From a virus: a stretch of DNA of 25,786 nucleotides. A model generated the notes under the pieces. The model saw nothing but the letters and a program-made list of their open reading frames with translations. It was not told the origin of the DNA and did no database searches. Numbering within the stretch: position 1 is the stretch's first letter; the number at the start of each line of letters is the position of its first letter. Location of the stretch: positions 1-25,786 of IMG/VR virus record IMGVR_UViG_3300023179_000459; one strand, given 5' to 3'. Both the position numbers and the translations under genes were made by a program. Below are positions 1 through 25,786 of this stretch, one piece after another.

Positions 1-1149
1 GTCACCCCGCCCCCGCCCCCTCCCCCGCCTCAGCCACCAGTCCCCCCGCCGGTAGCTCCGCCGCCTGCGCCGAAGGCCGTGAAGCCGCGAAAGGTCAAGC
101 CGCCGAAGGAAGACATTCCGGTCACGCCCCCCGTGGCCCCTCCGCCGAAACCGGCCGCCCCGGCTCCCGCCCCTGCACCTGCCACGCCACCGAAACCGCT
201 GACGATCGAAGAGCGGATCAAGGCGGCCGGCGAACGCGAGGACATCAAGACGCTGCGGGCCCGGGTGAGGGCGGTGGCAGAGGGCCGAGACGCCGAGCTG
301 CAGGCGCTCGAGGCCGAATACAAGGCCATCTCGGCCAAAATGGATGAGATCAGCAGGAAGAAGGCGGAACTGCTGGATCAACTCAATTCCGGCAAGATCA
401 AGATCAAAGAGCTGAAGAAGAGGCAGTCCGAATACGACCAGCAGTGGAGGCAAGAGCAGGAAAAGCGGATCAAGGTCTACTCTCGGCGTGGCGACGTGCG
501 AGAGGGGTACCACACGGCTGCACGTGAGGCATTCGGCGACCGCGACGTCCAGCAGTTTTCCGTTGCGCGCCCAACTGCACCCGCGAAGGTAACCACCCTT
601 GGGCGCTCAGAGGTTGAAGTCACGCCCGGGTCGGCGACGTTCAACCAGAAGCTTGGCGACGCGTTGGAATTCATTCAAAGAGTGTTCCGGCTCGGCTCCA
701 AGCCCCAGGCGGACGTCGTGCCGTACATGCTTCCTGCAGGCGAAAGAGCGTTTGCCAAACAGTCGGTTGTGTACATCACTGAGCACCACGAGACGGACAC
801 GTTCGTCCATGAGCTCGCGCATATCATCGAAAGTACATATCCGGAGATCCAGAAAGCCACAAACGAGTTTGTCGAAATGCGACTCGCGCGATCCGGGAAA
901 GCCTCGCAAAAGCTGGCAGATCTATTCCCGGCGCACAGATACCGCGACGACGAATACGGCAACGACGATGATTTCGGGGCTGTGTTTGACGGGACGGCCG
1001 CCTTCTACGTCGGCAAAAGGTACTGGTGGGGCTCCACGGAAATCCTGTCGATGGGCCTGGAGTATCTGTACACGGACGCCCCACGAATGGCAGCGGCCGA
1101 CCCCGAGTTTTTCAACTTCCTTGTGTCCGTTTTGAGGGGGGTTCTGTGA
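1..1149 (+). CDS. Minor head (MuF-like) protein, C-terminal part, with zinc-peptidase-like domain
   Basis: The frame is open from base 1, so the gene starts upstream and only its last 382 codons are seen. Visible order: a Pro/Ala-rich stretch (residues 1-65), a charged coiled-coil-like helix (about 70-160), then a compact C-terminal domain. That domain contains HELAH at visible residues 270-274 and a later TEILSMG with Glu347, the arrangement of an HExxH zinc peptidase with a downstream Glu ligand. Domains like this occur at the C-termini of phage minor head proteins encoded between portal and prohead protease, which fits this position. Whether it cuts anything is unknown; it could be structural or injected with the DNA. 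An internal GTG at 79 is not needed as a start. The stop overlaps the next start (GTGA). Confidence 0.6.
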   Translation, partial: VTPPPPPPPPQPPVPPPVAPPPAPKAVKPRKVKPPKEDIPVTPPVAPPPKPAAPAPAPAPATPPKPLTIEERIKAAGEREDIKTLRARVRAVAEGRDAELQALEAEYKAISAKMDEISRKKAELLDQLNSGKIKIKELKKRQSEYDQQWRQEQEKRIKVYSRRGDVREGYHTAAREAFGDRDVQQFSVARPTAPAKVTTLGRSEVEVTPGSATFNQKLGDALEFIQRVFRLGSKPQADVVPYMLPAGERAFAKQSVVYITEHHETDTFVHELAHIIESTYPEIQKATNEFVEMRLARSGKASQKLADLFPAHRYRDDEYGNDDDFGAVFDGTAAFYVGKRYWWGSTEILSMGLEYLYTDAPRMAAADPEFFNFLVSVLRGVL

Positions 1150-1400
1150 GGCGACTGGTCTGGAAAATCACTGGTGAGGACATCGTGGCCGACCTGGCAG
1201 ACGACTGTACTTGGGCGTGCAACTTCAGCGGCTTTCTGCCGCAGTTGCGGATCATCACCAGCGACGTGCTGGAATCAATCGGCCCGGCGGACGGAGACCC
1301 GCGGGCAAGGATCCTGCAGTCCGCAGGGCAGCGATTGAAGGCAAGCCAAGTGATCGACGACACCCCAATCGGGCCCACACCCGAATACGTTACCCCCTGA
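1146..1400 (+). CDS. Small hypothetical phage protein (84 aa)
   Basis: The GTG at 1146 overlaps the stop of the upstream gene (GTGA) and lies just behind a G-rich Shine-Dalgarno-like run at 1134-1140. I therefore prefer it to the upstream in-frame ATG at 1026, which would give a 40-residue N-terminus lying entirely inside the peptidase-domain gene. The product is short and soluble, with a Trp/Cys-containing centre and a Pro-rich tail, and has no motif I recognise. It lies in the head module between the minor head protein and the prohead protease, apparently in the same operon. Confidence 0.5.
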   Translation: MRRLVWKITGEDIVADLADDCTWACNFSGFLPQLRIITSDVLESIGPADGDPRARILQSAGQRLKASQVIDDTPIGPTPEYVTP

Positions 1401-1410
1401 AAGGAGCGAC

Positions 1411-1788
1411 ATGACCACACTCTTCAGCGTGCGATACACCCAGCAATGCGCCCGCACCATCCAGTCCGCATTCGTGCGGTGCGAGTCGACTGATATCGAC
1501 CCGGCGGCGATCAGCGGTATCATCGGAGCGATCAGCAGGAAAACCGGGGTCGACCCGGAGGACATCCACGTCTGCTGCGTGGAGCGGTTGGACGAGGTTC
1601 TGGAGGCTGCAAGCAATGGCGAGCGTCACACTGACGGAAAAGCAACTGCGGTCGCTGCTGCGGAAGGAGCGGCGGGTGGCGAGTCGGCAGGCGGCAAGCC
1701 GGCGACAGACACCCGCCCCTCTCGCAGCGGGGGCGGAAGCGGGTCCGGGTCCGGTTCAGTGCCGACTCGCCCTGCCGCTCGGCGTTGA
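1411..1788 (+). CDS. Small hypothetical protein with Gly-Ser-rich tail, overlapping the protease gene
   Basis: The ATG at 1411 follows a good Shine-Dalgarno (AAGGAG at about 1400-1405), directly after the stop of the previous gene. Residues 1-70 look like a folded domain with three cysteines (CVRY/VCC-type spacing, no known family). Residues 70-125 are Ala/Gly/Ser-rich, including a GSGSGSGS run. The last 173 bases run out of phase over the start of the prohead protease gene, so the low-complexity tail may simply be what the overlap allows. The function is unknown. The early part is supported by its RBS and position; the exact end is less certain. Confidence 0.5.
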   Translation: MTTLFSVRYTQQCARTIQSAFVRCESTDIDPAAISGIIGAISRKTGVDPEDIHVCCVERLDEVLEAASNGERHTDGKATAVAAAEGAAGGESAGGKPATDTRPSRSGGGSGSGSGSVPTRPAARR

Positions 1789-2794
1789 CCTGGACGGAGA
1801 CGAGGACGAAAACGAAGACGACGACGAACTTGGCGTCACGCACCAGTCGCAGTCGGTGTACGGGACCGACTCGCTCGAGCATCTCGCGGCCCACAACCCG
1901 GCGTGCCTGACCCAGGCCGGATACCCGTACACCACGTCGCAAGGCGCGACGATGGCAGCGAAGGACCCCGGGAAGATGAGCGCCACGTTTGTGGTCGTCA
2001 CCCGACAGAAGGACCCGAATCGCCACGGGAACATGGTGCAGATCCTCCCGGGCCCCAACGGGCAGGGGCTGCAAATCGAGGACTGGGCGGCAAACCCGGT
2101 GGTACTGTTCGACCACGGGGTGGGCTTGAATCTGCCCATCGGCACAGCAATGAAAAACGGCGAGCTGTTCTGGAACGCCCAGAAATCCAAGGCAACCAGC
2201 ACGGTGTTCTTCTCGCAGACACTCCCGGAAGCCGCCGCGATCTATGCACTGATCGACGAAGGAATCCTCCGGGCGTCGTCGATCCAATTCATGCCAAGCA
2301 GGGCGATGCGACTGACTGGAGAGCTTCCGGATCGCCCAAAGGGGGTCGAGTCGCTGGACTATCAGGGCTACGATTTCGTGGAGTCGAAGCTACTGGAGTG
2401 GTCGGTCGTGGCGATCCCAGCCGATCCCGGAGCGCTCCGCAAGTCCCTGGACTCTGGGCGAGTCGCCGGCCAGCGCATCGGCCCCGGGCTGAGATACGCA
2501 CTCGCGCAGCACTTGGGGCCGCAAAAGGCGTGGACGCCTGGCGTAGAACTGCGTTCCGAACCCGCTGCTGCAAGTGCTGTTGACGCAGCGCAGCAAAAGG
2601 CTACTCTTGCCCATGTGATTGACGGAAATGCACTGGCGGAGCAATACCGGCAGAGCATCATTGCGGCGGCCCCTGCGGTCGACCACAACGCGATTGCAGA
2701 GCAGGTGCGGCTGGAAGTCCAGCGAGCTACCGCAAGCGTGCTGGAGGGATTTCGGAAGCTCTCCAGTCGTGTGCAGTACCTCGCTGGAAATTGA
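1616..2794 (+). CDS. HK97-type prohead maturation protease (S78 family)
   Basis: This serine protease would cleave the capsid protein's N-terminal scaffold during prohead maturation. The core lies at about residues 120-280. It contains NPVVLFDHG with the candidate catalytic His167, ASSIQF with Ser221/222, and LLEWSVVAIPADPGA with Glu261, in the order expected for the HK97 gp4 fold. Residues 1-120 are an unusual extension with a basic helix and an acidic run (DGDEDENEDDDE, about 60-71). The C-terminal 110 residues are helical and could act as scaffold. The ATG at 1616 has GGAGG at 1602-1606, which favours the long N-terminus even though it overlaps the previous gene by 173 bases. It sits directly upstream of the major capsid gene, the classic order. 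Confidence 0.85.
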   Translation: MASVTLTEKQLRSLLRKERRVASRQAASRRQTPAPLAAGAEAGPGPVQCRLALPLGVDLDGDEDENEDDDELGVTHQSQSVYGTDSLEHLAAHNPACLTQAGYPYTTSQGATMAAKDPGKMSATFVVVTRQKDPNRHGNMVQILPGPNGQGLQIEDWAANPVVLFDHGVGLNLPIGTAMKNGELFWNAQKSKATSTVFFSQTLPEAAAIYALIDEGILRASSIQFMPSRAMRLTGELPDRPKGVESLDYQGYDFVESKLLEWSVVAIPADPGALRKSLDSGRVAGQRIGPGLRYALAQHLGPQKAWTPGVELRSEPAAASAVDAAQQKATLAHVIDGNALAEQYRQSIIAAAPAVDHNAIAEQVRLEVQRATASVLEGFRKLSSRVQYLAGN

Positions 2795-2828
2795 TCCGAA
2801 GCAGTTTTGAAACATCTGATTCCTCTTT

Positions 2829-2850
2829 GCCCCATAACTAGGGGCCGGAG
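2829..2850 (+). promoter_or_regulatory. Leader hairpin plus Shine-Dalgarno of the major capsid gene
   Basis: GCCCC (2829-2833) and GGGGC (2841-2845) form a 5-bp stem around a 7-nt ATAACTA loop. CGGAG (2846-2850) follows immediately as the ribosome binding site, 6 nt before the ATG. The same design, with the same ATAACT loop start but a swapped innermost base pair, precedes the tail tube gene at 10045-10066. This suggests an RNA element that sets translation or mRNA stability for the two most abundant virion proteins. Confidence 0.6.
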
Positions 2851-2856
2851 AACACC

Positions 2857-4347
2857 ATGAGCGAGTCGGCAACGGCCACCGCGCCGCAGCAGCCAGTGTC
2901 AACCGCGTTTGATCCCGCGCCCCTTCTGGCGGCCGTCCGGCAGTCCGTGACCGAGCTGGTGGCCCCGATCCAGCAGGCCCAAACGGCTCTTGCCCAGCGG
3001 GTCGAATCACTCGCAGCCCCCCAGCCCCAGGCGGCTGCCGCAGCATCGCGACTGTTCGGTGCCCCGGGAGCGGCCCCCGGCATTCGGCAGGGCGAGGACC
3101 CGATGTCGTCTCGCGGGTTCCAATACTCGCGGGCGGCGGGCATGTTTTCGGGCGTCATCCCGTCCGACCAATGCAAGGTCGAACGGCAGATGCACGAACT
3201 GCTGTCGGCCCACATGCGCCGGCTGGGATTCAGCCCCGAAGGCGACCGGTCGATGTTGTTTCCCCTCTGGATCGACGCGATCCCGGGCCTGACCGAACAG
3301 CAGACCGCCGAGATCCGCGAGACCGTGCGGCAGGGTGCTGTCGGCTGCGATCCGGGCGAGTTGCGTTCCATCGTCCAGCGGTCCCGCAGCGTGGCTGTCG
3401 CACAGGGGCTGTCGCAGTACGACGACACCGGGCTCGGCGTGTTGCTTGGCGCGACGATGCAGGGTGATCTGATCGAGCTCATCCGGGCTCGCGAGGTATT
3501 TTCGCGGGCGGGGGCCACAAACATCGCTCTGCCCCCCAGCGGTCGGATGCGATGGGGCAAGCAGACCGGTGCGACCACCGTTTACTGGGTCGGTGAGTCG
3601 GTGGCGATCACGTCCAGCGAGCCCACCACTGGCGATCTTGACTTTATCGCCAAGAAATTGGCGGTGTTGGTCAAGCTGCCGAACGAGCTGCTGCGGTTCG
3701 GAAACCCCTCGGTGGAGGCGTTCGTGCGAGCCGACATGGCCCGCGTGATGGCGCTGGAAGCGGACTTGGCGATGCTCAGCGGTCCCGGATCGTCGGTCAA
3801 GCCCAAGGGCTTGCTGAACTACGCCAACATCCAGACGCACACCGCTTCGACCACTGCGACCGACGGCGACACTTTCGAGCCGGAAGATCCGGCGCTGATG
3901 GTCGCCAAGCTGCAGGAATCCAACCACGACACCGAAGGACTCGGTGCGACCTGGGTTCTGCGCCCCTTGTTCCGCGCGACGATCTTCAACAAGCGTGCGA
4001 CGCCCTACTCGGGCGGAACGGGGAAGGGCGAGTTCCTGTTCGAGATGGACCGGTCCAGCTCGCAGAACGGCATGGTCGGACGCCTCGGCGGCTACCCTCT
4101 CGTGACCAGCACGCAGTTGCCGAAAGACGGCGCCAAGGGGTCCGGAACCGGCCTGTACCAGACGCTGTGCGGCGTGTTCGCGCACTGGATGATCGGCCGC
4201 GTTGGTGTGGCCGAATTTGCCTCGTCCAACACCGGTGACACGCCCTTCACGAACGATCAGACCTGGCTGCGGGTGATCCAGCACATGGACGCCGGGCCGC
4301 GATACGAGGACGCGTTCATTAAGTGCGTCAACCTGATCCTGGCCTAA
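2857..4347 (+). CDS. Major capsid protein, HK97 fold
   Basis: This protein forms the icosahedral shell. At 496 residues it fits an HK97 gp5-type protein with an N-terminal scaffolding (delta) region. Residues 1-90 are Ala/Gln-rich and helical. Residues from about 195 on give the typical pattern: GDLIELIRAREVF, then aromatic and Gly-rich strand segments (WVGESVAI), then KLPNELL and the long helix FVRADMARVMALEADLAML, then GLLNYANI and a C-terminal strand-rich part. The protease next door would remove the N-terminal region; a cleavage point near residues 75-95 is inference. The ATG is set by CGGAG 6 nt upstream, behind a 5-bp hairpin. Hairpins with T-runs follow the gene. Confidence 0.88.
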   Translation: MSESATATAPQQPVSTAFDPAPLLAAVRQSVTELVAPIQQAQTALAQRVESLAAPQPQAAAAASRLFGAPGAAPGIRQGEDPMSSRGFQYSRAAGMFSGVIPSDQCKVERQMHELLSAHMRRLGFSPEGDRSMLFPLWIDAIPGLTEQQTAEIRETVRQGAVGCDPGELRSIVQRSRSVAVAQGLSQYDDTGLGVLLGATMQGDLIELIRAREVFSRAGATNIALPPSGRMRWGKQTGATTVYWVGESVAITSSEPTTGDLDFIAKKLAVLVKLPNELLRFGNPSVEAFVRADMARVMALEADLAMLSGPGSSVKPKGLLNYANIQTHTASTTATDGDTFEPEDPALMVAKLQESNHDTEGLGATWVLRPLFRATIFNKRATPYSGGTGKGEFLFEMDRSSSQNGMVGRLGGYPLVTSTQLPKDGAKGSGTGLYQTLCGVFAHWMIGRVGVAEFASSNTGDTPFTNDQTWLRVIQHMDAGPRYEDAFIKCVNLILA

Positions 4348-4354
4348 TGTCGGC

Positions 4355-4399
4355 AGCGACAGGCTGAGTGTCGCTTGAATCGAGTCACACTGTTTTTTT
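4355..4399 (+). terminator. Possible attenuator/leaky terminator after the capsid gene
   Basis: Two mutually exclusive hairpins are possible. AGCGACA (4355-4361) pairs with TGTCGCT (4369-4375), 7 bp. Alternatively AGTGT (4367-4371) pairs with ACACT (4387-4391), directly before a T7 run at 4393-4399. The second, weaker stem has the position expected of an intrinsic terminator, and the first would block it. Partial termination here would lower transcription of genes beyond the capsid gene. The stems are short, so confidence is moderate. Confidence 0.4.
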
Positions 4400-4426
4400 C
4401 GCGGCGAAGTCCGCAGAGGTTTGTCG

Positions 4427-4831
4427 ATGCACGTCGATCTTCGGAATCAGCTTGTCGGGGCTCCGTCGCAGCTCCCCGGCAGCACAGCCCTGTCCGGGAC
4501 CACTGCCGCCAACGGGTCGGCGGTGGACTGCGATCTGGCGGACGGCCCCATCTACGGGATCTTCAACACCGGGGCCGCGACGGGGTCACCCACAAGTTTC
4601 ACTGTGACGTGCAAACTGCAGGAATCCGACACGTCCGGCGGAACGTACACCGATTTGGTCAGCCAGACCACGCTTGTGCTGTCGGCCGGGTCGACGATGG
4701 GGATCATTCAGGGCATTCGCACCAAGCGGTATGTCCGGACCGTCGTGACACCGGCGTTCACCGGCGGGTCGTCCCCCACTGTTCCGACCTCGGCCAACGT
4801 CGTCGGCCAGAAGCGCCGCATCGGGACGTAA
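4427..4831 (+). CDS. Small virion protein, probable capsid decoration-like protein
   Basis: The ATG at 4427 has AGAGG at 4415-4419 with 7-nt spacing, so it is chosen over the TTG at 4421. The 134-residue product is strand-rich with many Ser/Thr/Gly residues and no membrane segment. It carries segments such as GTTAANGSAVDC, GSPTSFTVTCKLQES and RYVRTVVTPAF. Small beta proteins of this look often follow the capsid gene in tailed phages and bind the shell or act in the head. The role is inferred from position and composition; no catalytic motif is present. It is followed by a strong hairpin with a T-run at 4872-4904. Confidence 0.55.
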   Translation: MHVDLRNQLVGAPSQLPGSTALSGTTAANGSAVDCDLADGPIYGIFNTGAATGSPTSFTVTCKLQESDTSGGTYTDLVSQTTLVLSAGSTMGIIQGIRTKRYVRTVVTPAFTGGSSPTVPTSANVVGQKRRIGT

Positions 4832-19551: not shown

Positions 19552-19688
19552 TCTGCTCTCTGGTGCACTGTGGATGCCGAATTCCGGTGTACGCCGCCAG
19601 AATCGAGAGTGAGTGCCCGATCCAGAAATGGCCAGCGATTACCCCCCACCAACCACCAGCAGAACCAGAGCATGACCAACCAGGCTGA
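19425..19688 (+). CDS. Small cysteine-rich protein, possible metal-binding
   Basis: ATG at 19425 preceded by AGAGAGG at about 19411-19417. The 87-residue product has a helical start (MDLEEFERAAREW) and seven cysteines at 33, 36, 40, 44, 49, 51 and 64, followed by PIQKWP and a Pro-rich tail. CxxC plus further Cys pairs could bind zinc or an iron-sulfur cluster. It overlaps the previous gene by 127 bases and the glycosyltransferase by 17. I do not know the family with certainty. It is real rather than a shadow because of the RBS, the Cys pattern and the coupling. Confidence 0.5.
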   Translation: MDLEEFERAAREWNSTTSTLGSEREYRGRLEACVWCRWRCGLICSLVHCGCRIPVYAARIESECPIQKWPAITPHQPPAEPEHDQPG

Positions 19689-20682
19689 GCAAAGGACACT
19701 GTACCTGCGGGCGGAAGCGCACGGGTTCGGCGATGCGTGTGTGACGTCTGTGATCAGCGAGAACAGCCGCGATCTCCCGGTTCGGCTGGTGCATTCCTGC
19801 CAAGGGGAAATGGCTGCGTTCGTGCGGATGCTGGGGCAGGAAGTCGTACAAATGCCCGACAACGAATGCGTCGACACCTTCGAGGCGTACTCCGCGTACG
19901 AGATCCAGACCCAGGGGGGCCGGGTGCCACGCGTGTGGTCTCGGGCGTTGGCGCTGGGGATCTATCTGGACCACCTGCGGCCGGAGGATCTGGTGATGCC
20001 CAAGGCGGTCATCAGCGATCGCGCGAAGGATTGGGCGAAGGCGACCTGCGACGAAATGCGGGCGTTCGGTGAGTGCAAAGCGGTGGCTCTGTGGCCCCAG
20101 ACGGTGTACGCGTGCCGGGAGTGGCCTGTCGGGTACTGGCACGATCTGGCGTGGGGGCTTCGGCAGCGGGGGATCGGGGCGAGGTTTTTTCTGGGCAAGG
20201 ACGAGCCTCGGTGGCACAACACCCCGGGGTACGTGTTCGGGATGGGCTGGGAGTACTGGGCGGCCCTGATGCTGGAGGCGGACGTCAACGTGGCGATCAG
20301 TTCCGGCCCTGCGTCGCTTGCTGCAATCCTACGTGCGTGTATAATTGTCCTTGAAGGGCCAACCAAGCCGACGATCTGGGCGCACACGCCATGGGTCGAA
20401 ATCATGCAGGTCGGGAAAGACGCTGTTGATTGTGTCGGCTGCCATTTCGGGACGCCTTTTCGGGGGGCCTGCGACTTCGGTTGCTTCGCGCTGCAGGCCC
20501 TGAATCCGGCACAGGTGCTGGCGCGAGTATTGGAAAAACTCGGTGTTGAATCACGCCAAGTGGAACGCTCGGGTGAGCCCAGTGCTCCCCTCCGTCTATG
20601 GCACTGGTCCTCATTGGGCTCAGGAGCTCTTGATTCGCGAACACGAGCCCTGGCACGACCAGGATGTGAGGGTTCTGACTGA
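19672..20682 (+). CDS. GT9-type glycosyltransferase, ADP-heptose transferase-like
   Basis: GT-B enzyme predicted to move a sugar, most likely heptose, from a nucleotide donor. The N-terminal half starts LYLRAEAHGFGDACVTS, the short form of the GT9 GLGD loop. The C-terminal half shows AVALWPQTVYACREWP, a helix with VNVAISSGPASLAAIL (SSGP at 210-213) and VLEGPT (227-231), the usual GT9 donor-site series. Cysteines at 254, 257, 267 and 271 mirror the C-terminal Cys cluster of many family members. The ATG at 19672 is chosen over the GTG at 19570 because the domain begins there. Its last 140 bases overlap the next gene and carry a low-complexity tail. Two HldE-like genes downstream favour ADP-heptose as donor. 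Confidence 0.72.
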   Translation: MTNQAEQRTLYLRAEAHGFGDACVTSVISENSRDLPVRLVHSCQGEMAAFVRMLGQEVVQMPDNECVDTFEAYSAYEIQTQGGRVPRVWSRALALGIYLDHLRPEDLVMPKAVISDRAKDWAKATCDEMRAFGECKAVALWPQTVYACREWPVGYWHDLAWGLRQRGIGARFFLGKDEPRWHNTPGYVFGMGWEYWAALMLEADVNVAISSGPASLAAILRACIIVLEGPTKPTIWAHTPWVEIMQVGKDAVDCVGCHFGTPFRGACDFGCFALQALNPAQVLARVLEKLGVESRQVERSGEPSAPLRLWHWSSLGSGALDSRTRALARPGCEGSD

Positions 20683-21346
20683 CGTTGTGCTGGACGATTG
20701 CTACGACGTGCAGGGCCACTTGGACGGCCTGTTTCCCGGTGTGATCGTCGACATTGGGGCGCACATTGGAGCGTTCGCGCTGATGTGCCGGCGGTGGTTT
20801 GGGGCGGACGTCGAATACCACGGCATCGAGGCGCACCCGCTGAACTGGGAGCTGCTCCGGCGAAACGTGAAGCGGTTCGGCTGGCGGCCGGTGCAGGCCC
20901 ACTACGCGGCGATCGACTACTGCGTGGACGGTGCACTTCTGCTGGATTCGTTTGTGTTGGGCGGGACCGCCACGGGCGGAAGCCGGGTGGTCGCTCCGGG
21001 CGAAGAGCACTTGACGTGGGGACACCCATTCGCGGCAAGTCCGCTGGACTGCACGGTGTCGACGCTGGAAGAGTTCTGCTGGGACGAGGGGATCCAGCAG
21101 ATCGACCTGCTGAAGCTCGATTGCGAGGGCAGCGAGCACCGCATTGTCGACCACTTCTGCGGCTGGCACGCGGTCCGCACGGTCGTCGGCGAGTACCACG
21201 GCCGGGAGGACTGGGAGCGGCGAATCAAGGCCCACCCGGTGCTGTGTGACTGGCGGTACACCGAGCTGAGCCGACGGAACGACAAGTCGATCGGGATCTT
21301 TTTGCTGGAGAATACGGAAGAGCACATCGGCTGGCTGGAATCGTAG
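20543..21346 (+). CDS. FkbM-family SAM-dependent methyltransferase
   Basis: Predicted to methylate an oxygen, usually on a sugar or polyketide. The 267-residue product carries VIVDIGAHIGAFAL (SAM motif I, residues 67-80), EYHGIEAHP (motif II acidic residue, 91-99), and the family hallmark LLKLDCEGSE (189-198). The GTG start at 20543 lies 140 bases inside the glycosyltransferase gene. The frame has a stop near 20500, and no later start preserves the conserved N-terminal part (REHEPWHDQD onward), so the overlap is probably real. The natural reading is that it modifies the glycan made by the neighbouring transferase. Confidence 0.8.
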   Translation: MLNHAKWNARVSPVLPSVYGTGPHWAQELLIREHEPWHDQDVRVLTDVVLDDCYDVQGHLDGLFPGVIVDIGAHIGAFALMCRRWFGADVEYHGIEAHPLNWELLRRNVKRFGWRPVQAHYAAIDYCVDGALLLDSFVLGGTATGGSRVVAPGEEHLTWGHPFAASPLDCTVSTLEEFCWDEGIQQIDLLKLDCEGSEHRIVDHFCGWHAVRTVVGEYHGREDWERRIKAHPVLCDWRYTELSRRNDKSIGIFLLENTEEHIGWLES

Positions 21347-21395
21347 CCAGTCATGCCATGCGCGAGTGCACAACTTGATTGAAGGGGGGACGCCC

Positions 21396-21752
21396 ATGTC
21401 TTACTGCCGTTGGTCGACCGACGATTTCCGCTGCGATCTGTACGTGTACGAGACGGCCGACGACTGGGTGGCCATCCATGTCGCAGGGAACAGGCCAGTC
21501 GGGGAGATCCCGAAGCGGGGCGTCCCGACGGTCGACAACGCGGCCGAATACTGCGAGCGGATGAATGCCCAGCTCGCCTGGCTGGACACGTGCGAGCGGG
21601 AGGACATCGACCTGCCGCACGCCGGGGAGAGTTTCGGCACGCCCCACACTGAGGCCCTGGGCGTGCTGTTGATGCTTCGTGAGCTCGGGTATCGGTTCCC
21701 GGACTCTGTGATTGACGCGATTCTTGGAGAGGTTCTTGAGCATGTCGAATAG
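21396..21752 (+). CDS. Conserved small phage protein of unknown function (MSYCRW type)
   Basis: The ATG at 21396 has a strong GGGGGGA at 21384-21390, so the upstream ATG at 21366 is rejected. The 118-residue product begins MSYCRWSTDDFRCDLYVYE, a start I recognise from many phage hypothetical proteins. It continues with WVAIHVAGNR, a central helix with NAQLAWLDTCE, and a C-terminal ALGVLLMLRELGYRFP. No catalytic motif is visible. It overlaps the kinase gene by 11 bases. Its presence inside the sugar cluster may reflect shared late expression only. Confidence 0.65.
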   Translation: MSYCRWSTDDFRCDLYVYETADDWVAIHVAGNRPVGEIPKRGVPTVDNAAEYCERMNAQLAWLDTCEREDIDLPHAGESFGTPHTEALGVLLMLRELGYRFPDSVIDAILGEVLEHVE

Positions 21753-22725
21753 CCCACTGATCTACGTGATTGGGGACATTTTTGTTGACCGCATGGTGGT
21801 CTACCGCGACCATCGCAAGACCATGGACGGGGTGCCCGTGGTCATGTCTCGAAAGTCGGCATCAAGGCCGGCGGACTGGAGGACAGGCCTCGGAGGAGCC
21901 GGTGCGGTGGCCCTGATGGCGTCTGCGTTGGGGGCCCGTGTGATCCTCGGTGGCGCCGGCGATGACGCGTGCCAGAAGCTGATCCTGCGTGACCAGTTCA
22001 ACCCGGACGGGGACCTGATGCGGTGGTCTTTCGTGGGGGACGCAAGTCGTCGCTGCGGTCGGAAGACGCGGCACATTGTCGACGGAATGACGTTGCTGCG
22101 GGTGGATGACGAGCGTCCCTGGCCAATCAGTGCTCACGACTACCAGGCGATGGTTGCGGCAATGTCGTCAGCGGGCCAGCCTGACGCCTTGATCCTCAGC
22201 GACTACGCCAAGGGAGTGCTGCACGAGGAATCAATTCGATCAATCCGGGCGGCATTCCCGGGGGTGCCGACGTTCGTCGACCCCAGCGCCGAAAAGCTGG
22301 ACTGGGAGGTGTACGGAGGGCAGCTCGCCGCCATCTGCCCCAATCGGCACGAGCTGTCGACCCGTCCCCATCCGCACGCGTGGATCGAGGCCGGCGCGGA
22401 GGTCATGATCGAGAAGCAGGACGAGGACGGGCTGGTCCTGTGGATCGAACAGCGAACGCCGGGCGAGATCAACCGGGAAGCCGTGTGGATGCCGTCGACC
22501 GTGAGCAAGACAGCCTCCCATTGGGAGGACCGCGTCGTCGACACCGTGGGGGCCGGAGACATGATGATCGCGGCTCTGGCGGTGGAACGCTGCAGGGGAA
22601 AGTCCTGGAAGGACGCCTGCGACTTTGCGAACGCGGCCGCCGGCGAGAAGTGCAGACACTGGGGGGCCGTGGCGGTCCACCGCGAAGCCGTTGAACGGAG
22701 GATGCGATTGTGTCCGGTCGTATAG
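21742..22725 (+). CDS. hldE: D-glycero-heptose-7-phosphate kinase (HldE kinase domain, stand-alone)
   Basis: PfkB-fold kinase that would phosphorylate heptose 7-phosphate at C1 in ADP-heptose synthesis. The 327-residue chain parallels the N-terminal half of bacterial HldE: YVIGDIFVDR (8-17), GGAGAVALMASALGA (51-65), LILSDYAKG (150-158), and the anion-hole/catalytic DTVGAGD (267-273) followed by the ANAAAG helix (296-301) and GAVAVHREAV. ATG at 21742 has GGAGAGG about 9 nt upstream. The adenylyltransferase half is a separate gene overlapping by 16 bases, so the bifunctional bacterial enzyme is split here. Another PfkB sugar substrate is possible, but the partner gene argues for heptose. Confidence 0.82.
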   Translation: MSNSPLIYVIGDIFVDRMVVYRDHRKTMDGVPVVMSRKSASRPADWRTGLGGAGAVALMASALGARVILGGAGDDACQKLILRDQFNPDGDLMRWSFVGDASRRCGRKTRHIVDGMTLLRVDDERPWPISAHDYQAMVAAMSSAGQPDALILSDYAKGVLHEESIRSIRAAFPGVPTFVDPSAEKLDWEVYGGQLAAICPNRHELSTRPHPHAWIEAGAEVMIEKQDEDGLVLWIEQRTPGEINREAVWMPSTVSKTASHWEDRVVDTVGAGDMMIAALAVERCRGKSWKDACDFANAAAGEKCRHWGAVAVHREAVERRMRLCPVV

Positions 22726-23201
22726 ACTCTGCCCACGCGGCCGCAGCCTGGGCGGCCCTTCAGCGCCGCAGGAAGCGGCCAATTGCGATCGTCAACGGCT
22801 GTTTCGACGGGCTGCACGTCGGGCATCTGGAACTGCTCAGGCAGGCTCAGACGCCGCGGAACGGGGAGGACCTGATCTACTCCGTGCTGGTGTGCGTCGA
22901 CAGCGACAGGCGGGTGGCGTTCCTGAAGGGTTCGGACCGTCCGATCTTCCCGCAGGCGGAACGCGTCGCGATGCTGGAGGCGTGCCGCTACGTGGATCGC
23001 GTGGAGGTGTTCGAGTCGCCGGACGAGCTGCGGGAGATCGTCGAGGCTGTGGCCCCGACCTGGATCGTCCGCGGCGAGGGAGAGCGAGGCCGAAAACCGG
23101 TCTGGTGCGAAGAGCTGGCGACGCGGGGGGTGCTGTGGGTGCAGACCCCGCCTGTGCACACCAGCGACATCGTGCAGAGGGTGCTGGATCGGCAGATTTG
23201 A
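22710..23201 (+). CDS. hldE: Heptose-1-phosphate adenylyltransferase (HldE nucleotidylyltransferase domain)
   Basis: Nucleotidylyltransferase that would join heptose 1-phosphate to ATP, giving ADP-heptose. The 163-residue product matches the C-terminal half of HldE: IVNGCFDGLHVGHLELL with HVGH (36-39), VCVDSDRRVAFLKG (61-74), RPIFPQAERVAMLEA (77-91), VDRVEVFESP, WIVRGEGERG and TSDIVQRV at the end (normally STTNII-like). GTG start at 22710, with GGAGG 8 nt upstream inside the kinase gene. The small size rules out a complete bifunctional enzyme. A glycerol-3-phosphate cytidylyltransferase is the main alternative, made unlikely by the adjacent kinase. Confidence 0.82.
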   Translation: MSGRIDSAHAAAAWAALQRRRKRPIAIVNGCFDGLHVGHLELLRQAQTPRNGEDLIYSVLVCVDSDRRVAFLKGSDRPIFPQAERVAMLEACRYVDRVEVFESPDELREIVEAVAPTWIVRGEGERGRKPVWCEELATRGVLWVQTPPVHTSDIVQRVLDRQI

Positions 23202-23245: not shown

Positions 23246-23340
23246 CGCCTTGGCCGGCGACTGTCCAACATGAAGATTCTGGGGAAACCCAGTTCAACCC
23301 GTTCGCGCACCGCCGGCCAAGCAGCGCGAACGGGTTTTTT
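23246..23340 (+). ncRNA. Candidate small structured RNA (about 95 nt)
   Basis: Three elements lie between a promoter-like sequence and an intrinsic terminator. There is an 11-bp long-range helix between 23249-23259 and 23311-23321, a small hairpin CTGGG-GAAA-CCCAG (23279-23292) with a GNRA tetraloop, and the terminator stem. The long-range helix uses bases in the terminator loop, so it would form either a pseudoknot or an alternative fold. No ORF with an RBS explains the segment. Function unknown; it could also be just the regulated 3' end of the late transcript. Confidence 0.4.
23298..23340 (+). terminator. Strong intrinsic terminator ending the late operon
   Basis: CCCGTTCGCGC (23298-23308) pairs perfectly over 11 bp with GCGCGAACGGG (23324-23334), with a 15-base loop and T6 at 23335-23340. 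It lies 96 bases after the last heptose gene, where + strand gene density stops. Confidence 0.85.
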
Positions 23341-23801
23341 CACGCCCGTGCGCAACCGGCGAGTGGCATCGGGCCACGCCGAAGACGGTTCGAACCCGTC
23401 CGCCGGATTTCGGGGGGTGTTTCTCCCGATAGGCGTGTGGCGACTTCCAGCGGGTCTGCCACGACGTGCGCTGAGGCGAGCTGGTGAGATGCACCGCCGG
23501 CCGGGGGAAGATCCCGGAGGCTGGGATGTCGAGCTACGGCTCGCGAGTGGAAGCGTGCACCGAGAATCGCCGTGGGGGTCGCCGGACAGTTTCGATCAAT
23601 CGAAATCGCCGGCGACTACTTGACCGACCCGACCGATAGCGTTTTCACACCGAAGAGCTGCTGGACCTACAGCGCAGAGCCCTGTGAAGTGTGCGCAAAG
23701 CGACACCTCCCAGTTGACGCGTGGATCGAAACTTAAGGTGAAAATGCGGAGGGAGGCGAGGGAGAGGCCCAGTGGGCAGGGTGCGCGCAGGAGGCAGCCA
23801 T
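23341..23801. other. Gene-poor, hairpin-rich interval
   Basis: I see no convincing gene here: open frames lack RBSs and read as Arg/Gly/Pro/Ser-rich. Besides the tRNA-like fold there are two clear stem-loops. GTGGCGAC (23437-23444) pairs with GTC-GCCAC (23454-23462, one bulged T). A 39-nt hairpin at 23578-23616 has an outer 8-bp stem GTCGCCGG/CCGGCGAC, a small internal loop and an inner TTTCGA-TCAA-TCGAAA. The interval separates the late genes from the small-gene cassette and could hold an RNA, an origin or an attachment site. Confidence 0.4.
23356..23406 (+). other. tRNA-like three-way fold with a perfect T-arm (51 nt)
   Basis: CCGGCG (23356-23361) pairs with CGCCGG (23401-23406) as an acceptor-like stem. 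Inside are a hairpin GTGGC-ATCGG-GCCAC (23363-23377) and a T-arm-like hairpin GACGG-TTCGAAC-CCGTC (23384-23400), whose loop equals the tRNA T-loop consensus and stacks on the outer stem with no gap, as in tRNA. One arm is missing, so this is not a normal tRNA. It may be a degenerate tRNA, an integration-site remnant or a tRNA mimic. Confidence 0.3.
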
Positions 23802-23969
23802 TCAGTTGGCTGAAGGCTTGTGCGGCCTGGGTGGACGGCGCGCAGCCATCATTCGGCGCTCATCTTCGGGCGTCGTCTCCTTCCCGCACCGGGCGCAGAG
23901 CCACTTTAGCCCGACCTTCTGGGCAAGCACGCAACCGCAATGCACACAGAGCTTTGTGCCGATCTGCAT
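23802..23969 (-). CDS. Small zinc-ribbon protein on the minus strand (55 aa)
   Basis: Read from the ATG at 23969 down to TGA at 23804-23802. The start is KLCVHCGCVLAQKVGLKW and then LCARCGKETTPEDERRM, so two CxxC(G) knuckles (Cys8/Cys11 and Cys25/Cys28, plus Cys13) lie 13 residues apart, the classic zinc-ribbon arrangement. A basic Arg/Pro tail follows. The ATG is the first possible start after an in-frame TAG. The RBS is weak (AGG). It is the only minus-strand gene I accept. It is divergent from the promoter/operator at 24044, an arrangement common for small DNA- or RNA-binding regulators, though no such role is shown. Confidence 0.55.
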   Translation of the reverse strand: MQIGTKLCVHCGCVLAQKVGLKWLCARCGKETTPEDERRMMAARRPPRPHKPSAN

Positions 23970-24043
23970 TGCCTGATGCTACTCGGGCTGGTGGGCGCAC
24001 GCGACTTTTTCTGGAAAAATCTGGAAAAGTTGTCGATCTAGCA

Positions 24044-24083
24044 TTGAACTGAATCATACACTTGTGTATGATTTGACCATGCG
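24044..24083 (+). promoter_or_regulatory. Promoter/operator unit, copy 1
   Basis: TTGAAC (24044-24049), exactly 17 bases, then TATGAT (24067-24072). Start of transcription is expected near 24079. A 22-bp palindrome, AATCATACAC-TT-GTGTATGATT (24052-24073), fills the spacer and covers the -10. An AT-rich stretch with two CTGGAAAA copies 10 bases apart (24011-24028) lies upstream. Copy 2 at 24411 has the same design. A repressor bound to the palindrome would block RNA polymerase. Confidence 0.75.
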
Positions 24084-24127
24084 GGGCGATTGACGCAGCC
24101 GCCGAACACCAGACCTGGGAGCCTGAC

Positions 24128-24337
24128 ATGACCGGAACTGAAATCAACCTGAAGCTGAACGAGATCCTTCACCGCGGACTGGGGCTGTGCCACCCGACTG
24201 AGACGCAACTCCGGAAGATCGGAAGCGAGCTGCGGGCCATCGCCCGGGCGGGCAATGAGCTGGATCGCGACGCAGTGGATCGCGTCCGGAAGATGATTGT
24301 CTTTCGAAAGGGATCTCGGGCGGCACAGTACCTGTAG
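24128..24337 (+). CDS. Small hypothetical protein (69 aa) behind operator copy 1
   Basis: ATG at 24128 with GGGAG at 24117-24121. The product is helical, alternating acidic and basic residues: INLKLNEILHRGLGL, then TETQLRKIGSELRAIARAGNEL and DAVDRVRKMIVFRKG. No helix-turn-helix or metal motif can be asserted. It is the first gene of the small-gene cassette and is probably controlled by the palindromic operator 55-76 bases upstream. A GC-rich 9-bp hairpin begins 12 bases after its stop. Confidence 0.6.
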   Translation: MTGTEINLKLNEILHRGLGLCHPTETQLRKIGSELRAIARAGNELDRDAVDRVRKMIVFRKGSRAAQYL

Positions 24338-24349
24338 TTCGACAGACAC

Positions 24350-24375
24350 CCGCCCCGGTCGATCAGCCGGGGCGG
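24350..24375 (+). terminator. Post-stop GC hairpin without T-tract
   Basis: CCGCCCCGG (24350-24358) pairs with CCGGGGCGG (24367-24375), 9 bp with an 8-base loop, starting 12 bases after the stop at 24337. It is followed by A-runs, not T-runs, so it is not a classic intrinsic terminator. It may terminate weakly or protect the mRNA 3' end. The hairpin at 25110 has the same 12-base spacing. Confidence 0.4.
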
Positions 24376-24380
24376 ATTAC

Positions 24381-24450
24381 AAAAAAAAACAAAAAAAGCC
24401 AGATTTAGAGTTGACCCGAATCATACGCAAGTGTATGATTCATCCATGCG
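24381..24450 (+). promoter_or_regulatory. Promoter/operator unit, copy 2, with upstream A-tract
   Basis: A9-C-A7 at 24381-24397 resembles an UP element. TTGACC (24411-24416), 17 bases, then TATGAT (24434-24439). The palindrome AATCATAC-N6-GTATGATT spans 24419-24440. The 40-base core 24411-24450 matches copy 1 (24044-24083) at about 32 positions, including CCATGCG at the predicted start site. The next gene begins at 24513. Confidence 0.78.
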
Positions 24451-24480
24451 ACGGCCAGTGCGGCCAAGCAATCACAACCT

Positions 24481-24508
24481 CGGCCAGAACGGCCGGCCCA
24501 ATGGAGAG
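24481..24508 (+). promoter_or_regulatory. Leader hairpin plus Shine-Dalgarno
   Basis: CGGCC (24481-24485) and GGCCG (24491-24495) form a 5-bp stem with an AGAAC loop. GGAGAG (24503-24508) is the RBS for the ATG at 24513. The AATGGAGAGT segment recurs before the gene at 25495, so the in-frame ATG at 24501 is probably part of the RBS block and not the start. Confidence 0.5.
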
Positions 24509-24512
24509 TCCA

Positions 24513-25097
24513 ATGTCGATCACAATCGAAGTCAAGGGTGCCCGGGTTTACTTCATCGGCAACACTTTCAGCGTCAAGGACGCGATCAAGGCCCTCGGCG
24601 GTCACTGGGACTCCGAGAAGAAGGCCTGGTGGGTGGGCAAGGCGAAGCTGGAGGCGGCCCAAAAGCTGGCCGCTGGCATCGCCTCGGGCGATGTCAAGGC
24701 TGTGGAAGAGGACGATCCCCGGATAGTCGCCAAGTGCAGGTACAAGGGCAAGACGTACTTCGCCCGGTGGGTCGGGCGGACGCAGTCCGGGGCCGAGAAG
24801 GCCCACCTGTACAGCTTCGACGGCAAGATCAATTTCTGGGCCGCTGTGGGAGGAGACGGAAACGGAGACACCGCCGCCGTCATCAAGCGGTACCAGCCCC
24901 GGGTCGACGGCGGCCGGGAGGAATACCAGCGGCTGTCGTCGATCCGCAGGTTCGTCGAAAAGCTCAAGACCGAGACCCCGGATGAGGCGAGCCAGCGGGC
25001 AGCGATCCGGGAGTGCGGCGGGCGCTGCCGGTGCAGTCGGCCCACCGACGAAGGGGATGGGACCTGCATGATTTGCGGGTACGCGATCGTCGGGTAG
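24513..25097 (+). CDS. Unknown phage protein: DUF5710-like N-terminus and zinc-ribbon C-terminus
   Basis: The 194-residue product begins MSITIEVKGARVYFIGNTF and then has VKDAIKALGGHWDSEKKAWW (about 21-40), the KxLGxxWDxxxKxW pattern of DUF5710-like domains found in DNA-processing and phage proteins. A middle beta region carries KTYFARWVGRTQSGAEKAHL. The C-terminus has cysteines at 168, 172, 174, 185 and 188 (ECGGRCRC and CMICGY), suggesting a zinc ribbon. The mix suggests nucleic-acid binding but no activity can be stated. It is expressed from operator copy 2 and followed after 12 bases by a 12-bp hairpin. Confidence 0.65.
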   Translation: MSITIEVKGARVYFIGNTFSVKDAIKALGGHWDSEKKAWWVGKAKLEAAQKLAAGIASGDVKAVEEDDPRIVAKCRYKGKTYFARWVGRTQSGAEKAHLYSFDGKINFWAAVGGDGNGDTAAVIKRYQPRVDGGREEYQRLSSIRRFVEKLKTETPDEASQRAAIRECGGRCRCSRPTDEGDGTCMICGYAIVG

Positions 25098-25109
25098 GTT
25101 GAAGTGTGG

Positions 25110-25137
25110 CCGCCCCCCGGACGAATCCGGGGGGCGG
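25110..25137 (+). terminator. Post-stop 12-bp GC hairpin without T-tract
   Basis: CCGCCCCCCGGA (25110-25121) pairs perfectly with TCCGGGGGGCGG (25126-25137) around a CGAA tetraloop. It begins 12 bases after the stop at 25097. The downstream sequence is GGTGCGG, with no T-run. It may be a T-less terminator or an mRNA 3'-end stabiliser. Confidence 0.45.
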
Positions 25138-25192
25138 GGTGCGGCAGAGGTATCCCAGGCCCTGCGGGGCCGCAATTTTCTGGAGTCAGAGC

Positions 25193-25354
25193 ATGTTTCA
25201 GGCAGCGATTTTGGCGCACGTTGTGCCGCACTGGGCTACCCCCAAGACCTCTGCGCAGGGCGGAAAGGGAGATGTCTCGTCCGGCATCGTGTTGATGGCG
25301 GCAGCCATTGTGGCGTGGGCGGCAGCTCGGTTAGCGGCGAGAAGAGTGAAGTAG
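25193..25354 (+). CDS. Small single-span membrane protein (53 aa)
   Basis: ATG at 25193 with GGAG about 7-8 nt upstream, behind a small hairpin GGCCC-TGCG-GGGCC (25158-25171). The N-terminal half is short and polar. Residues about 31-47 (GIVLMAAAIVAWAAARL) form one hydrophobic span followed by the basic end AARRVK, which predicts N-out/C-in by the positive-inside rule. It could be a holin-like, superinfection or membrane-anchoring peptide, but nothing decides among these. The reading is supported by RBS, composition and cassette position. Confidence 0.5.
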   Translation: MFQAAILAHVVPHWATPKTSAQGGKGDVSSGIVLMAAAIVAWAAARLAARRVK

Positions 25355-25371
25355 TGTGCGTCCTTCCGCGA

Positions 25372-25438
25372 GCCGGCCGGGAGGTGAGAGACCCGGCCGG
25401 CACAAGTCCCCCCTGTCGGATTGTTTCCGGCAGGGGGG
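25372..25438 (+). terminator. Two tandem GC hairpins after the membrane protein gene
   Basis: First: GCCGGCCGGG (25372-25381) with CCCGGCCGGC (25392-25401), 10 bp, 10-base loop. Second: the C6-started arm 25408-25420 with 25426-25438, 13 bp with one G-T pair, 5-base loop TTGTT. Neither is followed by a T-run. With the hairpin at 25460 they occupy most of the 140 bases between genes. Confidence 0.45.
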
Positions 25439-25459
25439 CAATTCAAACAGAGTTCACCC

Positions 25460-25490
25460 GGCCGCCCATTGGGCGGCCCCAAATGGAGAG
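25460..25490 (+). promoter_or_regulatory. Leader hairpin plus Shine-Dalgarno of the last gene
   Basis: GGCCGCCC (25460-25467) pairs perfectly with GGGCGGCC (25471-25478), 8 bp with a 3-base ATT loop, followed by AAATGGAGAG (RBS GGAGAG, about 25485-25490) and ATG at 25495. The layout parallels the leader at 24481-24508. Confidence 0.5.
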
Positions 25491-25494
25491 TACC

Positions 25495-25786
25495 ATGAGC
25501 GAAATGAATTCAACTGTTGTTTCGGCCGAAGTTCCTGCGGTGGTGGCCAGAGCACTGGCCGCGGGCGAGCAATTCTGGGTTACGGACGACACCCCCTCGC
25601 TGGACCGGAGCCGGGTCAGGAGGGTGTTCTGGTTGGAGGTTGAGGGGGAGATGCGGGGGTGGGCCGGGGTGGCCCACTTCTGGGCTGGAACGACCTGGCT
25701 GGGATGCCCCCAGGCTGTGCGAGGGCTGCCGGAGTGGCTGGTCCCCCTCTTGTCGCCGCAGAAGCTGATGGTCGAAGCGCCGCCCC
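25495..25786 (+). CDS. Unknown Trp-rich protein, 5' part only
   Basis: The frame runs from the ATG at 25495 off the end of the window with no stop (97 codons visible). The N-terminal 20 residues are Ser/Val/Ala-rich. The rest has six tryptophans, with EQFWVTDDTPSLD, VRRVFWLEVEGEMRGW, VAHFWAGTTWLG and GLPEWLVPLLSPQKL. No family is recognised. The start is supported by GGAGAG and by the hairpin leader shared with the gene at 24513. It is likely another member of the same small-gene cassette. Confidence 0.55.
   Translation, partial: MSEMNSTVVSAEVPAVVARALAAGEQFWVTDDTPSLDRSRVRRVFWLEVEGEMRGWAGVAHFWAGTTWLGCPQAVRGLPEWLVPLLSPQKLMVEAPP

Follow-up and report, generated by a model that had tools for sequence, protein, structure and literature searches.

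Two near-identical promoters in a viral sequence of 25,786 bases each carry a 22-bp palindrome, and these palindromes are likely the operators of a phage-encoded repressor of the Cro/C1 type (XRE, HTH_3), with lysogenic immunity as the probable role. The sequence analysed (the window) is the whole of IMG/VR record IMGVR_UViG_3300023179_000459 and is part of the genome of a putative temperate-type phage; it encodes capsid and tape-measure proteins and holds glycan genes. On this reading, metagenomic sequence alone has yielded a likely repressor together with the operators it would recognise, for phages without a known host. It has also supplied no fewer than two, and probably three, repressor/operator pairs that have diverged in nature and could serve to test the evolution of immunity specificity.

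Probable operators in the window and in a near-complete relative

The features around the two units in the window are:

23802..23969, minus strand: gene for a 55-aa zinc-ribbon protein, transcribed divergently from promoter 1; weak zf-C2HC5 match below cut-off; conserved in the relatives G001 and G003
24044..24072, plus strand: promoter 1, TTGAAC-17-TATGAT, 5' of the 69-aa ORF; from the consensus scan, kept in G001
24052..24073: operator 1, AATCATACACTTGTGTATGATT; palindrome exact, the G001 copy differing at one central base only
24128..24337, plus strand: 69-aa ORF behind promoter 1, of unknown function; 88% identical in G001; Rv2632c-like by Pfam, below cut-off
24411..24439, plus strand: promoter 2, TTGACC-17-TATGAT, 5' of the 194-aa DUF5710-like ORF; from the consensus scan, kept in G001
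24419..24440: operator 2, AATCATACGCAAGTGTATGATT; palindrome exact, the G001 copy identical
24513..25097, plus strand: 194-aa ORF behind promoter 2, DUF5710-like (E 1.1e-5, just below cut-off); 92% identical in G001

A recount of the two units (24044-24083 and 24411-24450) confirmed the 32 of 40 identical positions of the original prediction, with flanks close to background. The -35, 17-bp spacer and TATGAT that it described were found in both by a consensus scan, the hexamers being sigma-70-like, and AT-rich tracts are indeed present upstream of each. The palindrome across spacer and -10 is exact in both copies (AATCATAC-N6-GTATGATT, with a chance expectation of 0.02 matches at three or fewer mismatches), and its symmetry extends further than had been claimed, to arms of 10 bp, AATCATACAC/GTGTATGATT, that flank two central bases; a single pair is mismatched in copy 2. 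With TATGAT taken as the -10, it spans -27 to -6. As suggested originally, the units may act as an early switch.

A search of IMG/VR returned a single close relative, IMGVR_UViG_3300016471_000620 (hereafter G001; 56,260 bases), which is ∼96-97% identical over most of the window and 93% over 23866-25786. Because window positions 1-3455 match the end of this record and 3456 onward its start, G001 is a near-complete, circularly permuted genome. Window positions 23253-23865, between the cytidylyltransferase and zinc-ribbon genes, are without a match in it, both flanks matching well. G001 carries a phage integrase family gene (Pfam), adjoined by a stretch that by eye resembles the first part of a tRNA-Met gene (L005 16254-16300, G001), possibly the attachment site. 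It keeps units 1 and 2 at the same 367-base spacing and adds three promoters built in the same way:

G001 29943: site 3, after csrA
G001 36276: site 4, after a DnaC-like gene
G001 39182: site 5, before a DUF1257 gene

Together with one intragenic site and the promoter of an HTH gene, both described below, these five promoters make up the G001 set of seven sites at ≥16/20, against 0.003 expected. Mean pairwise identity among sites 1-5 is 82% in the -35, 72% in the left arm, 100% in the right arm and 30-33% in the flanks, and outside the -35 and the palindrome sites 3-5 are unrelated. As sigma-70 needs the right arm and not the left, conservation of the left arm speaks for binding by a protein dimer. 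The motif CCATGCG, originally placed at the predicted start site as part of the unit, is shared by the two window units; we discarded it as a component, since it is changed in G001 unit 1 and missing from sites 3-5.

Several neighbouring features were recorded. A phage-encoded CsrA homologue lies directly 5' of operator 3 (L005 18876-19055), as it does in G003, and genes for an AAA ATPase, DUF1257 and DUF2997 lie behind operators 4 and 5 (L011 8484-9977, 11169-11756 and 11766-11972), the ATPase giving a weak partial match, far below cut-off, to the model of the anti-phage ATPase IteA. An intergenic 14/20 operator-like site ahead of a replication-organiser-like gene (L011 6573-6594; G001 34572-34593) could be a weak eighth site.

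A scan for the palindrome, as proposed with the original prediction, returned more copies in the window and G001. The promoter/operator in its promoter context was found in no other viral contig, operator plus -35 in none of 84,980 genomes, a set from which the true host species may be absent, and a search of genomes for prophages via the terminase returned none. This restriction to one lineage is better explained by a phage-encoded regulator than by a host one, with the proviso that the host may be unsampled, and a host SOS/LexA-type or other host regulon was discarded for the lack of any genome with operator plus -35. Four further palindrome matches, on contigs with only stray k-mers in common with these phages, were set aside: one lies inside coding sequence (L017), two form a related A+T-richer pair, lacking promoter context and probably coding (L015 and L016), and one belongs to a longer hairpin (L018).

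An HTH protein that co-varies with the palindromes

As regulator the original prediction had offered the zinc-ribbon gene, a candidate we rejected: its product has no HTH, and no operator copy lies beside the homologue in G003 (4354-4470). The HTH gene of G001, which has no counterpart within the window, occupies 46701-47090 on the minus strand, facing the terminase small subunit gene (terS), and encodes a 129-aa protein. An operator copy stands at G001 47116-47137, in the 83-base gap 5' of the gene (16/20, P ∼3e-5), and contig G002 holds a 98% identical copy of the gene with the same upstream site. The protein is of Cro/C1 type (HTH_3, E 1.8e-6, above cut-off) and matches several phage-repressor PHROGs. 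Its AlphaFold2 model has five helices in a confident core and disordered ends (mean pLDDT 72), and the best Foldseek matches, at modest scores, belong to the XRE type, HipB and 434 Cro among them. A sequence search of the PDB returned nothing meaningful, and no match was found among annotated phages and plasmids. The protein is short, with a disordered tail, and no peptidase domain was matched in it. Given the near-identity of the two phages and their matching operators, the window's own phage presumably carries a G001-type HTH protein.

Terminase searches returned two more phage types (G003-G006 and G007) at 72-73% terminase identity. In both, an HTH gene occupies the corresponding position, with an identity across the matched portion of 36% in G003-G006 and 46% in G007. 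The AATCATAC operator is absent from both. In G003 (56,793 bases) a repeat search returned, among many families, a TTGAC-17-TACAAT promoter pair sharing a different palindrome, AATTGTACGC-NN-GCGTACAATT, of the same length and in the same register at the orthologous promoters. Scored against a consensus symmetrised from these two early promoters, G003 has four matches at ≥15/20, against 0.07 expected:

G003, after csrA: 18/20
G003, after the DnaC-like gene: 17/20
G003, promoter region of the HTH gene: 15/20 (P ∼4e-4 for that gap)
G003, inside a glycosyltransferase gene: 17/20

The same four places are occupied in G001, and the HTH and intragenic matches are independent of how the consensus was made, since it was built from the two early promoters. 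Every site is a better match to the operator of its own type than to that of the other, the G001 intragenic site by one position only (16 vs 15). The HTH promoter sites are the weakest of their sets (16/20 in G001, 15/20 in G003), and that of G003 is displaced downstream with respect to the -10. The HTH promoter region of G007 contains ATTGTGCG-TTCT-CGCACAAT, a perfect palindrome with 8-bp arms that can be laid in the same register; elsewhere the G007-type palindrome was met in unrelated contigs only. The co-variation thus comprises two well-sampled types and this single G007 site; G004, G005 and G006 are not counted as independent, because G004 repeats the two promoter sites of G003 and the HTH protein is identical in G003-G006. 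No HTH homologue was recognisable in terminase relatives at a greater distance (42%) or in the RecT-like relatives.

That the sites co-vary with the HTH protein makes it the best regulator candidate. The relatives show that protein and sites changed together, so that the phages probably fall into separate immunity groups. Of the original proposal of one regulator for two promoters, the common regulator is well supported, the sites changing as a set between phage types, and the set is larger than two.

Two other repeats were seen in passing. In G003 a hairpin-like repeat, ACCAGTGTT-GAA-AACACTGGT, occurs in many copies (L030 7072, 9613 and 15643; L031 5283, 13258 and 18163), two of them directly upstream of the operator promoters. 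In phages related only via the RecT-like gene, a palindrome of approximately AGTTTAG-N8-CTAAACT covers spacer and -10 of TTGAC promoters (L097 at 5746, minus, and 686, plus; L090 at 4122, plus, and 13837, minus; L081 at 9225, minus), and these are perhaps further repressor/operator types.

An operator-like site inside a glycosyltransferase gene

A third copy in the window, overlooked in the original prediction, was found with two mismatches in the scan and lies within a gene:

19672..20682, plus strand: glycosyltransferase family 9-like gene holding the site (Glyco_transf_9 E 5e-4, below cut-off)
20318..20345, plus strand: promoter-like TTGCTG-16-TATAAT overlapping the site; read by eye, below the scan threshold
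20325..20346: operator-like site AATCCTACGTGCGTGTATAATT, a 16/20 match; the homologous G003 site is 17/20 for G003's own operator
20543..23201, plus strand: FkbM methyltransferase, PfkB kinase and cytidylyltransferase-like genes 3' of the site (Pfam)

The homologous place in G003 reads TTGCGG-16-TACAAT. When codons were drawn at random among synonyms with the amino acids fixed, the window site's score was reached with P 6e-4, a value uncorrected for the site having been chosen for its high score. The G003 position is, unlike this, fixed by homology, and there the corresponding P is 5e-6 for the score against G003's own operator. Three of the eight codons of the site encode different residues in the two phages (L/A, C/G and I/T), in a stretch otherwise well conserved. 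We read the site as real; it might serve to transcribe the FkbM, PfkB and cytidylyltransferase genes behind it, as their promoter, or act as a roadblock. Rather more tentatively than for the circuit as a whole, we propose a phage immunity system with single dispersed palindromic operators, one of them inside a glycosyltransferase coding sequence that would have changed along with repressor specificity. The site in this gene suggests that a protein sequence can bear the trace of an operator switch.

Proposed circuit, alternatives and known systems

In the circuit we favour, a dimer of the HTH protein would bind the 22-bp palindrome from -27 to -6, over spacer and -10, and so block RNA polymerase at early promoters, namely units 1 and 2 in the window and, in the near-complete relative, also those that follow csrA and the DnaC-like gene and the one that precedes the DUF1257 gene. 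Further targets would be the promoter-like site within coding sequence upstream of the glycan genes and the HTH gene's own promoter, which would make the circuit autoregulatory. Binding and repression by the HTH protein, and lysogeny of the phage, are here inferred from sequence; a palindrome across spacer and -10 at normal spacing would fit steric repression, and, an integrase being present, the simplest role for the protein would be that of a lysogeny repressor.

The HTH protein might instead bind these sites as a Cro-like shut-off protein of early genes, or as an activator, in the lytic cycle. We think this unlikely, if worth keeping in mind. In its favour, the gene sits between replication-side genes and the terminase, and the surroundings of the integrase gave no lysogeny repressor of their own. 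Yet a phage with an integrase is expected to have a repressor of its early promoters, for which the HTH protein is the sole candidate found with operator copies, and the palindrome's position at a normal 17-bp spacing is a better fit to repression than to activation. Less probable still is that the palindromes serve another regulator, a host factor or a different phage protein, with the HTH gene as one more member of its regulon. The screen for DNA-binding proteins took in part of the G001 proteins, and G001 also encodes a ParB-like protein, CsrA and an excisionase-like 104-aa protein, the last two conserved in G003; the HTH gene is nevertheless the only one of these with an operator copy directly upstream, and in two phage types, while the operator in its promoter arrangement is missing from all 84,980 genomes, which makes a host factor less likely, provided that the host's group is among those sampled. 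That the units are duplicated strong sigma-70 promoters with incidental symmetry is highly implausible: their 32 shared bases of 40, including CATGCG, could reflect local duplication, but sites 3-5 have nothing of this beyond -35 and palindrome, conservation extends to the left arm, which a promoter does not need, the orthologous G003 promoters have another palindrome that agrees with this one in length and register, and the intragenic copy follows the operator type.

For repression by a C1-type HTH protein, the reading we favour, several known systems offer parallels. Operators of MerR-type regulators likewise place a palindrome between -35 and -10. MerR promoters have a long spacer of 19-20 bp, whereas here the spacer is 17 bp, on which ground MerR-type activation was rejected, the palindrome runs through the -10 and the candidate protein is HTH_3. 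The lambdoid C1/Cro circuits (lambda, 434, P22 c2) are closer, with an HTH_3/C1-type protein, palindromic operators over promoters, apparent autoregulation, and repressor and operator diverging together between relatives. Each of these traits recurs here: an HTH_3 regulator, repeated palindromes over early promoters (five in G001, two in G003), an operator at the regulator's own promoter (G001, G003 and G007) and a specificity that changes with the regulator. What is absent is the lambdoid layout of a compact, divergent immunity region that includes a cro-type partner: single operators are scattered through the genome instead of being grouped at one divergent switch, and the regulator gene, with no cro partner seen there and no peptidase domain matched in its product, lies beside the terminase and not, as in classical immunity regions, next to the integrase or early genes. 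Because the gene faces terS, with the integrase ∼18 kb away, we do not file the system as lambdoid.

Dispersal of sites over the genome, with repressor and consensus diverging together, is shared with the Cluster A mycobacteriophages (L5, Bxb1), which have many sites per genome and whose consensus diverges with the repressor into distinct immunity types (PMC6550527). Cluster A sites are 13-14 bp long, asymmetric, bound by a monomer, present at 20-30 per genome and mostly outside promoters (PMC6550527, PMC9283540), in contrast to the approximately seven 22-bp palindromes found here, mostly in promoters, and by this difference in site type and number the circuit is not a Cluster A system. Most likely it is an immunity-repressor/operator circuit of a known kind, which works like C1/Cro and resembles Cluster A in having its palindromic operators dispersed.
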